A stretch of 64,000 nt of DNA from Rhynochetos jubatus. Its lineage: Eukaryota > Chordata > Aves > Eurypygiformes > Rhynochetidae. Where the stretch lies: the NCBI GenBank assembly GCA_027574665.1, contig CM050666.1, positions 8,866,001 to 8,930,000 of the forward strand. The letters are read 5' to 3'. Position 1 is the stretch's first letter. Every line of letters starts with the position of its first letter. The notes under the pieces were generated by a model. That model was not told the origin of the DNA. It did not search any database and worked only from the letters and a program-made list of their open reading frames with translations. This document shows positions 13,084 through 49,289 of the stretch, one piece after another. The translations under genes were made by a program, and so were the position numbers.

Positions 13084-15618
13084 CAGCCCCTGATATAAAG
13101 GGCATATTGTTACATCGGTTGGCAGTAAAGTAGATGGGAATTGGACCTGTGTTACTGTGCTTCTCCCTGGCTTTTTGTAGCTTCTGGAAGGTATTGTAGC
13201 CCATTGTACCTGTAGAGCTGCCAAACTCTGCTATCTTACCCTAGGGATGTGGCACATTTATGGCTACAAATGCAGAAGCCAGCTTAAACTCATCTTTGCC
13301 TAATACGTTTTCTGGCCATAGTATGTGTACTGAGTAGTAGACAATCTCTGGCAGTGATTTGGTATGCTGTTCATTATTTCAAGGCTAACAAGAATTTCAT
13401 TGTTAGTAGTGCTTGAATATAATCATAAGACATCTTTTCCATGAAGAGTGGAGGTGTAGTATCAGCAAACTGCCAAAGGTAGGCGGGTAAAGATTCATTT
13501 CTTGTGTTTTGACATTGGTGGTGTTAGAAAACTCCTTGGTGTAGGAGCAGGACGTGTATCAGGGATGTGGAAACTGCATTCACGATCACGTCTCAGGACT
13601 TGTCAGAAACAGTCTTTCTAGTTGGACCAAGGAGCTCCTTGATCATACAGGAAGGTAGTGCTCTTTCATTTTCTCGCATACCAATTTCATATTTAATATC
13701 TGCACAAATTGCTTCTCTTGGCTCTCTTCAAGAATCTTGTAAAGACTAAGTGGTGAAAATTAGATTACTTAGGCATTTAGTTTCCAGGAGTTACTGAACT
13801 TGTACTGTGACTTTTGATTCTTTCATTCAAAATTAACAGTGACAACATTAATGATTTATTGTGAAGAACTTAGTAATTTGTCATTCACCCTTTCTTTTTC
13901 TTTTTAATCTGAAGATGAGGAAGGGGGAAGATTATTAGACAAATACATTTCTGGAGGTGTTCTGTGTAATACTAGGTGTTTCAGAACCTCTTGAAAGAAG
14001 GAGGAATTGATCATTGCTCAGGTGATTTTATGATCATGTTGTAGTATGGAATGGGTTTAAATATATAGAACTGCTTGTCTTACTGGTGAATGAGCTGGTT
14101 TTTATTCTGGAAGGTACTATGTTTGCATCTGAGAAGATGGGGTTATTTTAGAGCTTTACCAAAGTGGAGTCTTTTTCCTCAGTGATTCCACAATGCATGT
14201 CAAGCTCAGCATCTTGAATGTGTCACATCTTGAATATATATTAAAAAAAAAAAAAAAGACCAAAACCTCCACAAAATATGAGCTTTTCTGTTGCCCCGGC
14301 AAAACTTTTATTGCAAAATCACTAAAATAAGCATTTGTTCTGTTGTATATTCTGCTTTCTTCCAGCTTCCAGGTAGGTAGTTCCTGTATGCTGTTGTATT
14401 TTAATTGAGCCCATTATAACTCCCGATTCCCAGCTGCCCCAGTTGGTGTTTGGATATTGCTGTTGGTTTGTTCTGTCTGGGCTGGTGTAGAGATACGTTA
14501 GAGAATTATATTTGGCTTCTCTAAGTCCCTCATGACAACCCAGACGTTCTGCCCTGTGCCTTCAGATATTGTATAGCAACATTATCCTTCTAGAATACTT
14601 GGGTAGGCTTTCTCTGCTACCTGAATTGCCTGAACGGTGCAGATTCAGCCAGCTGGCTGTCTTGGGCAGAGTAACGCCGCTTTATTTAAAACTGGTAAGA
14701 AGATTTAAGCCCGGTTTGGGGTGGCATGGGGGGACTTGGAGAAACCAAAATAGCAGGTAAGAAATTGTGCTTATAGTCCTGCACAGATGACAGAAGTATA
14801 ATTGAAGAAGCCATCGCAGGCTGTAAAAACCCAAATAAACTACACACTCGCCAGCCCCTGTAAAATCTCGTAGACCAATTGCATTTTTTTTACCAGGTTA
14901 AATAACCTAAAACATTGGCTTTTAAATGTCTTCCAGAAGTAATTCGAGCTTTAATGTTACCTATCTGGACCTGAATTCCTTAGACATAACAAATATGTAG
15001 TCCCATAACAGTATGATACATAAATTCAAATGGTTAATGGCAAATGGCTAACATCTGGTCACCTGGAGAGTCCTTTTGTGTGAGTTTTTAGTTAATGGTG
15101 AGATTTCCTGTTAAAACTTACAGTGGTATTTCAAAAGTATCTAATAACTTTAAAAAAACCTTGTGTCTTATAAGACCATGGTGGTTAAAATCTTGTTGGT
15201 TTTGCAGATTGCCTTAAACTGTCAGCTAATTATCCTTTCTGCTGTGTGGGTAAGTATGGCTCCAATACCAGGGTGTTTTAAGTGATGGGAGAAACCCCCC
15301 AAAAGGCTGTGTTTAGTCTGGTCCCTTCAAATGCCATGCTCAATGCCCTGCCTGCTAACCAAGCAGCGAGAGTCAAAACAGTATACAGGCAACTCTGTGT
15401 TAGCCAGTTTGTGTGCTGTTGTACAGATCAGTAAGTAAACACGATCTAACTTCAGCCTCATTCAAAATGGTATCAAGACACCCTGCTTTTTTCACTGTAG
15501 AAATGTCACTCTTGCTTCTACTTGAAGTTTAGGCTGGAAGGAGGGACATTTTTTCTTTTTGAGTGGGACACTATTTCCATTTTTTTCTGTGACAGATTGT
15601 TTTTTTTTCTCCTTGTAG

Positions 15619-15896
15619 GTTGAAAGAAGAAAGGGAGACCTGCTTGTCCAGTGAAGATGCAGTCTTAGTCCTCAGCTATTTAAGCTGAATGCATTGTGAT
15701 TTCCAATAATTGAGACAGTGATTCTGAAAGCTGTCTACATTAATGAAAAGAACAATGTAGTCAGCTTAACTGAATCATCAGTGTTGCATATTGAATAGAA
15801 CATGATAAACCAATCTTGATGGACTTATGCATGTTAGGAATATAGATCTAAACATTTATTCAAGCATTGTGTTTTTTTAAAACAGTAGTTTTAAAA
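15619..15896 (+). other. DGCR8: DGCR8 5' UTR part of exon 2, rich in uORFs
   Basis: The leader follows the acceptor ccttgtag and runs to the ATG at 15897. It contains several short upstream ORFs: 15657-15668, 15689-15709, 15743-15760, 15802-15819 and 15819-15845, plus another ATG at 15827. The mir-3618-type hairpin lies at 15718-15778. A TTG codon at 15867 is in frame with the CDS, but the first in-frame ATG is 15897. Confidence 0.8.
15718..15778 (+). ncRNA. MIR3618: Pri-miRNA-type hairpin, mir-3618 counterpart in DGCR8 5' UTR
   Basis: The arms 15718-15741 and 15755-15778 pair over nearly their full length, with a closing stem of 15 pairs broken by one T/T mismatch, then small internal mismatches. 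Bases 15732-15753 match the human mature miR-3618 I remember, except for one base near the 3' end. In mammals this 5' UTR hairpin is cut by Drosha-DGCR8, which destabilises DGCR8 mRNA and forms a feedback loop. Conservation of the hairpin is seen here; processing in this species is inferred. Confidence 0.85.
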
Positions 15897-18800
15897 ATGG
15901 AGAAATACGAAAGTGTACCACCCCTCCCTAAAGAACCTGCAAGAGAAATGAATGTGGAGAATCATACTTGTCCCCCACCTCTGCCGCCTAACGAACAGCC
16001 TCCACCACCTCCCCTGCAAACGTCCAGTGACGCAGAGGTAATGGACGTTGGCTCTGGTGGTGATGGACAGTCAGATACCCCTGCTGGGGACACGCACAGT
16101 ATCTGCAGAACACAGCTGCTCACAAAGGGATCTGCCTGCTACAAAAGTCGTCTTATAATAGACCCTAACAGTAGTGACCAAAGCCCAAGAACTGCTCGGC
16201 ACGCACCTTCAGTTCGCAAGTTCACCCCAGATCTTAAGTTACTTAAAGATGTAAAGATTAGTGTTAGCTTTACAGAAAGCTGCAAAAGCAAAGATAGGAA
16301 AGTTCTGTACACTGGTGTTGAGCAGGATTATAAGGCAGATACAGATTTTGGTATTAATAATGTCAATGGGGATGTGCATGTTTGTCCTTTTGGTGGTAGT
16401 AATGGTAAAGCTGTAGGAATAGGGGGTGAAAATGATGACAAGAAGGATGATGAAAATGATATTGATCAGGAAAAGAGAGTGGAATATGCAGTTCTGGATG
16501 AGCTAGAAGATTTTACCGACAATGTGATGGAAATAGATGAAGAAGGAGGAGGGTTCACCTCTAAAGCAATCGTTCAAAGAGATAAAGTGGATGAAGAAAC
16601 CTTGAATTACTCATATGAGGTAAGTAAATCCACAGGGTTTCGGTGGGTAAGGTTTCCACGTGGCTAGAAAAAATACACAGATATGTTCACTGAAAGAGTC
16701 TCATCTAGAAACGGACGGTAATCGCATCAGAAATGCAGCATTGTCAGACAGAACTTTGGCTGAAAACTTTTGTCAGTTATCTCGGTCAAATTTTTGTTAC
16801 ATGGCAGCTTCTATAGTCTTGTTTTAAAATAACATTTAAAAGGCTTCTTCCACAATTGCAGGTCATTTTATCATGAAAAAGACCAGGTCTCACTCACGAA
16901 AACTTATTTTCTTATTTTTCAGTCGTTTTACTGGGATCATTGGAAATTTCTAGTTTCTTTATGTATTGAAATACATAGAGAAAATGTGTGCTTTTGCAGG
17001 GGGAAAGGGAAGTTGGTAGCCCCAGAAGGATAGTGTCTGATGAAGTCTCTTTCAGGATGACTTTGATAATGATGTGGATGCTCTGCTGGAAGAGGGTCTT
17101 CGAGCACCCAAAACAAGGAGACTAGAAAATGAGAAATATGGTGGTGAAAGCGATCACCAGTCTGATGGAGAAACAAGTGTGCAGCCAATGATGACCAAAA
17201 TTAAAACTGTACTTAAAAGTAAGTTAATGTTCATCAAATAGCTCTAATTTTTTGTGGGGGTTATGCCTGTAGAACAAGAGTATCTGCAACCAAAGCGCAA
17301 ACTTTTTTAATGGAAAACTCAATTGTTTCAAATGCAAGTACGACTTCTCCATCAAATATAGTGGTGATTGTGCTGACATAAGTTAGTATGTAAAGGAAGA
17401 GAAAATTCCCTGGTGAAACGAACCAATTGGTCTGTATAAAAATTCGTGCTACTATTGCTTTCAGTTGGAAACATAACGGAATCTGTAATTTTGCGGGTTT
17501 TAGTAAAGCAAACCAAAATCTTTCCACAAAACTTTTTTACTCTTGTTTCAGTGTCATTTCATCCTTTGAGACAGAAAAAGCAGTACAGATAAAAACATTG
17601 ATTCTTTTTCTGGTCTTTTAAGCAGTCCAAGTTTAAAGCCGTTCTTTGCTTTAAAGGTCGTGGCCGCCCTCCTACAGAACCTTTGCCAGACGGATGGATC
17701 ATGACATTCCATAACTCAGGCATTCCTGTATATCTGCACAGAGAATCTAGAGTTGTTACCTGGTCTAGGCCTTATTTCTTGGGAACAGGAAGCATAAGGG
17801 TGAGAGCTGTCAATTACTTAAATACTTACTGAGATTTAAAAATTAGCTGTGTTCCTGCAAACAGGCTGGTTTCCAGTGTCAGAATTTAGGTGAACTTAGA
17901 ACTTGAAAATTGAACTCCTCTCTTTCTGAAAATATGATTTTTCTTAGTGTTTTGTTTTTCCATTTTTGCAATGAGTTTGGGCAGTTAAAGTGAATGAGAT
18001 GGTCTTGGTTTGTGCCCTCGTTGGTCTAGCATATGGCTGAGAAATGTTGGTTTTATTCCAGCATGAAATATATTTAGATCATTTATTTGTAGCTGTGAAC
18101 TACCTGAGCTGTGGGTTATGGTCCACATTTACAGAAGGAAGCATAAGATGTTCATGACCCCAAGGAACCTGCAGAAATTGAATTTAACATCATGGGTTTA
18201 AATCCCAAGAGACCTCAATGGATTTTGGGAAACCATGTAGTTTTTGCAAGTAATAGAACAGAATATAGTTTGTATCTAAAACAGCAAATGCACTTTGAAG
18301 TTTACTATCAGTGTATCCAGTGCCAAGATACCACAGGAGCGGATGTGCTCAGATCTTGCGTAGAATAAGATTGGCGACCAAAGAGAAGCTTGAGCCTAGA
18401 CTAAATAAAATTAACTTCCATCTTGGTTACATCTTTTGGTGACCTTGAGGTACTGAAACCTTCTGTATTATTTTATATTTGCAGAAACATGATCCTCCCC
18501 TTAGTAGCATTCCCTGCTTGCATTACAAAAAAATGAAGGAAAATGAGGAAAGGGAACAAAACAATGACATAACCCCAAATGGGGAGGTATCACCAGTAAA
18601 GCACCTAGATAAAGCTTCAGAACTGGACTGCCAAACAGAAGAACCAGACTCTACTGCTGCCGATTCTGGGCCTTTAGATGACAAAGATGCCTCAGGGGGA
18701 GACGCAGCACAAGGAGCCTTAGGACAAGTTAAGGCCAAAGTTGAAGTATGTAAAGATGAATCTGTAGGTATGTATGGAAAGCGGAGTCTCTTCTTGGCTG

Positions 18801-38400: not shown

Positions 38401-39851
38401 AGCCCCGCTCCGCACAGCACCAGGATTACACTACCTGTAATGGTGATGCTTCCACTCCCTCTACTGGGCAACACAATTTATTATACTTCTGCTTCTGCAG
38501 GAACAACCAAGGTAACAAAGCTCTGTTGTTGTTTCCTATTTCCCTGCCCAAAACAGAAACAAAAATGTAAACCACAGTTAGAAAAACAGAGGTTAACAGT
38601 CACACGGGGATTTTTTTTTTTTGCATAGGGAATAAAAAGGTATCAGATTATCAAATGAAGAATACTTTTTCCCGAATTTTTAACAGGCAACCCACCCCCA
38701 AACTTTGTAAGAGCTGTAACCTGAAAAGTTAAGCTAAATGGATTTATAAAGGTACCTACTAGATTCATCAACGTACCCACGCATGAAAAGAATGCCAATT
38801 TTATCTATGTAAGCGAGTAAGGCAAGAGACAGGAGTGGTACTTTCACCTACAAAGAACTGTCGTAAAGATTTTAGGGGATTTTTAAGAGAAAATCCTAAC
38901 AGTAATTTACCAACTCTGCAGATCCATTACCTCTTATGCCATTTGGCAGTGCCAATTTTTTCTGAGCTTTAAGGACACCTGCATCCTTTGGCTTAGGCCT
39001 ATGGAACAATGGACCTTAAAACAATGCCCCTTCAGTTACCAATCCTTCGAGGCTGACCAAGGACAGCAACAGCGTTTTGTCAGCTGGAAGTGTTGGAGTC
39101 CTAGCAACGCAGATCATCTTTTATTTGCCAGGGGATCTGGGCTCTGACCTACCTCTAACTTACTTTATTTTAGAGATAGCCATTTGTGCAAATTGAGCTA
39201 TATCCCTTGTAAACATCACAGTAGCTTTACAAACAGGAATTACTTTGTCAGCTTCTGCAGCACTTGTTCACATTCCTCCTTCTTTCTGGCCAGCTGCTCT
39301 TCGTAGGGCACATTCCACAGTGGGGTCACCACATCGGCTATCTGCTTGCTCAGGGGCTCCTCTCCGCTGGCTTTGGAGGGAGCCGGCCGCTTTGCCTCTC
39401 CCTGCTCCGTCTCCTCTTCCCTCTTCCTCTTTTTTGCGATGGGGTCGGCTTTCGGCTTGGCAAGCCTCACGCTCAGGTGGCGGCTCTTCCACAGAACCCC
39501 GTGGAGGACCTTCATGGCCTTGTCCCTCTCCTCTTCGCTCTTAAACGTCACGAACGCGAACGTCTGCTTCCCAAAAAGTTTTATCTTATGAGGACTGAGT
39601 CCGTACTTGGCCAGGAACTTTTTCACGTCGTTAAACCCGATGTATTTGGGAAGGTTTTGTATTTCTACTTTATAGATCTCGGAGGTAAACAAGTCTCCCT
39701 TAATGTATCCGTACACGTCGGGGCCGGCTGCGGGGCTCTCCGCCGGGTCACCCCCACCTCCGCCGGCCTTGCTCTCCACCTCAGCCCCATCTTCAGCCGG
39801 CACAGCAGCCACGACGTGGCCGGGGTCGCCGCGGCCGCCCCCCTCCGCCAT
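32453..39851 (-). CDS. TRMT2A: TRMT2A, tRNA (uracil-5-)-methyltransferase A
   Basis: TRMT2A is an S-adenosylmethionine-dependent enzyme making m5U54 in cytosolic tRNA. Exons, 5' to 3': 39851-39244, 38543-38435, 37951-37770, 36886-36772, 36518-36403, 35826-35715, 34739-34617, 34044-33969, 33463-33347, 33142-33046, 32732-32453. All introns are GT-AG and phases close, giving 644 aa (human 625). An RRM lies near residues 57-131 ([15 protein letters not shown]), then a basic linker with KKRKREEE. The TrmA-type catalytic half has the SAM loop [11 protein letters not shown] (440-450), DPPRAG (513-518), nucleophile Cys541 in YVSCNP and general base Glu584 in [10 protein letters not shown]. The ATG context is AGCATGG. 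The C-terminal tail after the enzyme fold is acidic and probably disordered. Confidence 0.97.
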
Positions 39852-40170
39852 GCTCCCACCAGCCTCCCCTCAGGCCGGACACCAGGTCAACCCCAGCCCA
39901 GCGCGTGGCTTTCTGACCCCGCGCACACCTCGCGCTTCCCGGGGCCGGGCCCCTGGGGGCGGGGCCGTGGCGTCACCGTCACGAAAGGAATCGGGGGGGG
40001 AGAAGCGATTATTCGTTTTAACGTCTGCCCCTCACCGCTGCCGCTCCTCGCGCGCGGGGCCAGCCGCACCGCTTCAAACCAGCGGGAACAGCGGCCAAAA
40101 CTCTGCCGCGCCCGTCACGCGCGTGGGCGCCATCTTGGGCGCGGGGGGAGGCGCCGCCATGCCGCGAGGG

Positions 40171-40365
40171 CCGATGGGAAACTCCCCGGGAACCGCGCGA
40201 GATAAAAACCCTTTGCCTGGGGCAGCGCGGGCCCGGGCCGGGGCCCGGGATCGGTACCGGGGTCGGTGTCGGCGCGGCGGGCGCTCTGTCCGCGCCGGGA
40301 CTCGTCGCTGCGGCGGGGGCGGGGCGGGAGCGCGGGGCTGAGGGCGAGCGGCCGTTTCCCATCGG
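40171..40365. repeat. Perfect 12-bp inverted repeat in bidirectional promoter
   Basis: CCGATGGGAAAC at 40171-40182 is the exact reverse complement of GTTTCCCATCGG at 40354-40365, with 171 bases between. G/C-rich bases flank both arms. Two copies of one factor site in opposite orientation, one facing each gene, is a plausible reading. Confidence 0.6.
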
Positions 40366-40475
40366 GCCGTGCGGCGGCGCGGGCTGCGGGAATGAGGTAA
40401 AGGCGGGAGGGGCGGGGGCGCGCGGCAGGAAGCTCGGCGGGCAGGCGGCAGCGGCGAGCGCGGCGAGCCGGGCCC

Positions 40476-49289
<8,814 letters not shown>

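Follow-up and report, generated by a model that had tools for sequence, protein, structure and literature searches.

In mammals, according to reviews of the subject, Drosha-DGCR8 (Microprocessor) cleaves the DGCR8 mRNA at stem-loops located in its 5′ end, lowering the level of that mRNA. Depletion of Drosha is reported to raise DGCR8 mRNA, and one review describes loss of the stem-loops, through the use of downstream promoters or by deletion, as an escape from autoregulation that leaves DROSHA and DGCR8 unbalanced. A 2026 Outlook (PMC13041536) describes mir-3618 as optimal and mir-1306 as its suboptimal neighbour, whose cleavage SAFB2 or ERH aids. Some findings speak against a strong effect: in one study DGCR8 abundance did not respond to overexpression of Drosha, and one review puts the effect on Dgcr8 mRNA at only twofold and regards its physiological relevance as unclear. 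In human cells, miR-1306 is reported to be far more abundant than miR-3618, which sits oddly with the description of mir-3618 as optimal.

Products of these hairpins are in print for several other vertebrates. miR-1306 has been placed in chicken DGCR8 (PMC3675212), gga-miR-1306 reads are reported from chicken libraries (PMC3511444), and the rat mir-1306 precursor and its mature forms are given in Table 4 of PMC3314633. For channel catfish, ipu-miR-3618 is listed with 372 reads in Table 1 of PMC3546936; it was placed by mapping to the zebrafish genome, and the account given with it does not say in which gene the catfish locus lies. Among the literature matches listed, none is a bird miR-3618, all those with gga names being gga-miR-1306, which is weak evidence of absence. 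The two-hairpin DGCR8 module described here is an instance of this already known system, which is well described in other vertebrates. Our analysis adds a corrected span for the 5′ hairpin, the perfect match of its 5p arm to the catfish read, and a conserved island of peptide that coincides with the coding hairpin.

Both hairpins lie in a single DGCR8 exon

We scanned the whole 64-kb window (the stretch of Rhynochetos jubatus DNA analysed here, 64,000 nucleotides) with Rfam 15, and obtained three matches above the curated cut-offs, all on the + strand: mir-3618, mir-1306 and SNORA77. The mir-3618 model (RF04152) matched over its full length (model positions 1-88 of 88; 110.4 bits against a cut-off of 99, E = 1.2e-25), as did the mir-1306 model (RF01014; positions 1-72 of 72; 106.3 bits against a cut-off of 70, E = 2.5e-23). 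The two hairpins lie in one exon on the + strand (Table 1), mir-3618 upstream and mir-1306 downstream, separated by 229 bases (15769-15997). An earlier note on this DNA was thus correct that both elements are present, about 230 bases apart.

The exon is preceded by a 3′ splice site whose last base is 15618 (TTGTAG) and followed by a 5′ splice site whose first base is 16620 (GTAAGT), and the DGCR8 frame continues in frame into the next exon. We aligned the frame that opens with the ATG at 15897, together with the next exon, with the DGCR8 chain of PDB 6lxd, which we take to be human. The alignment begins at residue 1 of that chain (E = 1.5e-129), and on this alignment we identify the host gene as DGCR8. 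The region 15620-16100 was matched at one place only in the animal's own genome (1.33 Gb, 148 contigs). Before the DGCR8 start, the leader holds eight upstream ATGs on the + strand (15657-15831), with frames of 1-17 codons; those at 15689, 15743 and 15755 fall within the mir-3618 hairpin and open frames of 6, 5 and 1 codons.

Other features of the window lie further downstream. The SNORA77-like H/ACA snoRNA is at 48319-48451 (+ strand; score 51.8 bits, above the cut-off of 42). A TRMT2A-like coding exon (RRM_1) lies at 39240-39869 on the - strand, opposite to DGCR8, and matches tRNA (uracil-5-)-methyltransferase homolog A with E = 5e-30. Many long frames overlap on both strands at 39197-41249, which suggests a G+C-rich promoter region.

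Table 1. Positions of the DGCR8 exon, its two hairpins and their putative products in the window
Feature	Position	Strand	Basis or match
DGCR8 exon, probably exon 2, with both hairpins	15619..16619	+	Ends placed from splice motifs only
mir-3618 hairpin, 5′ UTR, favoured fold	15681..15768	+	Rfam RF04152 covariance model
Putative miR-3618 5p	15698..15719	+	Equal to catfish ipu-miR-3618, PMC3546936
Hairpin of the earlier note; competing, weaker fold	15718..15778	+	-21.5 kcal/mol when cut out
Putative miR-3618 3p	15732..15753	+	21/22 with miR-3618 of PMC8431113
DGCR8 coding start, 241 codons in exon	15897..16619	+	PDB 6lxd DGCR8 chain from residue 1
mir-1306 hairpin inside DGCR8 coding sequence	15998..16069	+	Rfam RF01014
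Putative miR-1306-5p	16005..16026	+	22/22 with rat miR-1306-5p
Putative miR-1306-3p	16044..16065	+	22/22 with rat miR-1306-3p

The 5′ UTR hairpin has an upstream 5′ arm

The earlier note had placed the 5′ UTR hairpin at 15718-15778, a span that has the wrong 5′ arm. When 15675-15785 was folded, the Rfam structure reached -32.7 kcal/mol and the structure of the earlier note -22.2 kcal/mol, a difference of about 10 kcal/mol. With the whole exon folded (15620-16619, the segment also used by our scripts), all 31 Rfam pairs of mir-3618 had probabilities of 0.69-1.00, and all 20 pairs of the shorter hairpin had a probability of 0.00. The longer hairpin is thus the favoured fold in transcript context. 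It also stands out from its surroundings: among 307 windows of 90 nt with starts from 14000 to 18590, 15680-15769 ranks first for structure (z = -7.1; the next is -3.7). The minimum-energy fold adds one pair, 15688-15761, which the mir-3618 consensus would not form. The next most structured windows, 18200-18289 (z = -3.7) and 16910-16999 (z = -3.5), both on the + strand, are outside both identified exons.

The 3′ strand of the shorter hairpin belongs to the longer one (15681-15768), and the mistake is understandable because 15728-15742 resembles 15681-15695, either of which can pair with 15754-15768. For the same reason 15718-15778 folds well in isolation (z = -5.3, with none of 200 shuffles as good). 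Folding of 15700-15800, which the earlier note had proposed as a check, does give that stable hairpin, but it does so because the true 5′ arm is absent from the stretch.

The mir-3618 hairpin has the same letter as the Rfam consensus at 78 of 88 positions, and the ten differences leave the structure the same. Six of them make up three replacements of a consensus C-G pair by U-A (15681-15768, 15690-15759 and 15697-15752); the rest comprise one that is one-sided and keeps the pairing, and three at positions that are unpaired in the Rfam structure. Ten random positions would include at least three whole pairs with a probability of 0.0016, an optimistic figure because Rfam sets the letters of its consensus one base pair at a time. 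In the shorter fold, two of the ten differences fall on paired bases (15758 and 15759); given the consensus letters, 15758 would be unpaired (C-A) and 15759 would form G-U, against A-U in the window. Taking together the energies, the pair probabilities, the consensus pairing and the catfish read considered below, we rejected 15718-15778 as the Microprocessor substrate.

The basal UG and CNNC are sequence motifs of primary miRNAs. By eye, a CNNC is present at 15776-15779, beyond the usual distance downstream of the cut sites implied for mir-3618.

Putative products of mir-3618 and comparison with fish

For the 3′ arm of the 5′ UTR hairpin, we used a printed miR-3618 sequence that we take to be human. 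Elsewhere in the window, neither miR-3618 22-mer matches with fewer than 6 mismatches. Two-nucleotide 3′ overhangs are the signature of Drosha and Dicer. On the predicted pairs, the duplex of 15698-15719 with 15732-15753, whose matching arms come from different species, has 2-nt 3′ overhangs at each end. The source of the 3p sequence is PMC8431113, where a table gives it as the tenth name and the tenth sequence. ipu-miR-3618, as printed for the catfish in PMC3546936, is identical to 15698-15719 at 22 of 22 bases, and thus lies on the arm that the earlier note omitted. That a catfish small RNA matches this arm suggests an origin of the 5′ hairpin before fish and tetrapods diverged.

The coding hairpin is well matched but not outstanding in stability

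The mir-1306 hairpin carries the consensus letter at 71 of 72 positions. The span given for it in the earlier note, 16002-16069, is close to that of the Rfam match and has a folding energy of -29.4 kcal/mol (z = -3.0; one shuffle in 200 does as well); for 15990-16080, the stretch with flanks that had been suggested for folding, the z-score is -2.3, and 5 of 200 shuffles do as well. It is not outstanding among the same 307 windows of 90 nt (starts 14000-18590), where 15980-16069 comes twelfth (z = -2.5). Synonymous recodings folded at least as well as the coding hairpin in 170 of 3000 cases when drawn by exon codon usage, in 404 of 3000 when drawn uniformly, and in 327 of 3000 when its own codons were permuted; mir-1306 is thus not clearly more stable than other codings of the same peptide. 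With the whole exon folded, 7 of the 18 mir-1306 pairs had probabilities of only 0.58-0.59. The low rank and the weak recoding result fit the published label of mir-1306 as suboptimal, and by themselves are no evidence for structure.

The hairpin matches in full length the described mir-1306 (RF01014; rat, chicken and gorilla miR-1306). The rat precursor, as printed, is identical to 15997-16069 at 71 of 73 bases, the differences being a Ser-to-Pro change in the 5′ flank and a silent one at 16031, and both rat mature arms are identical here. Placed on the mir-1306 pairs, these arms leave 2-nt overhangs at both ends of the putative duplex. A 25-nt chicken miR-1306-5p mimic, as given in its source, matches 16004-16028 with 0 mismatches. 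A 16-base piece of mir-1306 was also found in 12 stretches of viral contigs, which we take for chance matches.

Conservation of the RNA and of the peptide it encodes

The mir-1306 hairpin spans 23 whole codons, of which 21 are comparable with the printed rat sequence; one of these differs synonymously, and none of 15 fourfold sites differs. The neutral rate between rat and the animal studied here is expected to be high. The probability of at most one synonymous difference in 21 is 0.006 at a rate of 0.3, 0.058 at a rate of 0.2 and 0.36 at a rate of 0.1. The peptide in the same place is itself an island of conservation: DGCR8 residues 35-58 (15999-16070), coextensive with the mir-1306 hairpin, are identical to the 6lxd chain at 22 of 24 positions, against 15 of 34 in the flank before and 9 of 24 in the flank after. 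Conservation rises again in the 20 residues after the second flank (15/20) and extends over much of the sequence further on.

Selection on the hairpin RNA is supported by four lines of sequence comparison: the catfish identity at 22 of 22 bases, the three paired C-G to U-A differences in mir-3618, the absence of change at 15 fourfold sites in mir-1306, and the coincident stretch of peptide. The earlier note had described the arms as matching human mir-3618 and mir-1306 almost base for base, which is an apt description (78/88 and 71/72 letters of the consensus sequences, 21/22 of the printed miR-3618 and 71/73 of the printed rat mir-1306), and it had argued from this near-identity that the feedback loop itself is under selection. 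The argument finds support as far as selection on the RNA is concerned, but the conservation is less surprising than was suggested, because miR-1306 of chicken DGCR8 and a fish miR-3618 were already in print.

Discussion

We are confident that this exon carries a conserved DGCR8 autoregulatory module, which would be cut by Microprocessor with cluster assistance. Both hairpins are present in the DGCR8 exon, with the predicted structure, homology and conservation described above; cleavage, cofactor help and feedback would operate in this animal by analogy with published work in other vertebrates. In the proposed mechanism, mir-3618 (15681-15768) would be a good Drosha-DGCR8 substrate and mir-1306 (15998-16069) a poor one, cut with its neighbour's help (cluster assistance). 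When Microprocessor is abundant, DGCR8 mRNA would be cut at the hairpins and lost, and DGCR8 would fall; when Microprocessor is scarce, the mRNA would be spared. Small amounts of miRNA would be released as by-products.

The anatomy, with mir-3618 upstream, then mir-1306, in one exon and with 229 bases between them, fits the assistance model as developed for other vertebrates. The element known from the 5′ UTR of vertebrate DGCR8 (RF04152) has the same location in the leader here, and the three pairs in which it differs are compensated. The described cross-regulation of Microprocessor (Han 2009, Jang 2025 and Shang 2026, via PMC13041536) involves the same two hairpins in the same order in a single exon, here known from sequence. 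In naming DGCR8, mir-3618, mir-1306 and the self-cleavage loop, the earlier note was right, the loop being one that the sources describe as established for mammals.

Several other accounts of this conservation can be given. The one we take most seriously, while thinking it unlikely, is that the sequences are kept for miRNAs with targets elsewhere and that cleavage of the mRNA is a side effect. Identity in the mature arms is very high (22/22, 21/22, 22/22 and 22/22), a target of chicken miR-1306-5p is in print, MIR-1306 is entered in MirGeneDB 2.1, listed there as a non-canonical microRNA, and rat miR-1306-3p was detected by microarray in 5 of 6 samples (PMC3314633). However, the eight rat libraries reported in the same paper hold only 0-4 reads each of miR-1306-3p and 4-28 of miR-1306-5p, which is low for a trans-acting miRNA; the lower stems beyond the mature arms keep their pairing too; and loss of the stem-loops, as reviewed, acts directly on DGCR8. 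Somewhat less probable still is that selection on the protein sequence has preserved the coding segment, with the hairpin an incidental feature, as the match of 22 of 24 residues to the 6lxd chain and the unexceptional standing of the hairpin against synonymous recodings would allow; against this, none of 15 fourfold sites and only one of 21 comparable codons differs synonymously from the printed rat sequence, and the flanking stretches of protein agree less well with that chain (15/34 before, 9/24 after).

Two further alternatives concern the leader alone. Translational control by short upstream frames could explain why it is conserved, and has in its favour the eight upstream ATGs, three of them within 15681-15768, yet the frames within the hairpin run to only 6, 5 and 1 codons, the three paired replacements keep structure, and the reported catfish small RNA suggests that the arm is processed in a fish; we consider this explanation very improbable. 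Hardly any credence goes to the idea that the shorter hairpin at 15718-15778 is a real second conformer and the leader a bistable switch. The shorter hairpin does fold well alone, as would follow from the resemblance of the two segments that compete for 15754-15768, but its pairs vanish in context, with the consensus letter at 15758 it loses the pair to 15737, whereas the longer fold stays paired at that base, and 20 of the 22 bases of catfish ipu-miR-3618 lie outside it.

With an autoregulatory module as the preferred reading, the peptide island invites a further proposal, which we advance tentatively and think rather more apt to prove wrong than right. The 24 residues may exist because of the RNA: mir-1306 would dictate them within an otherwise divergent tail (residues 1-82), mir-1306 itself would be retained for its role as the assisted neighbour of mir-3618, and the whole two-hairpin module would have been held since before the split between fish and land vertebrates.

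The corrected 5′ element has a practical consequence, in that reporters, deletions and conservation tests of the leader all need to include the arm 15681-15719. For the animal itself, the finding means that its genome keeps both of the RNA elements through which Microprocessor is believed to restrain one of its own subunits, DGCR8.
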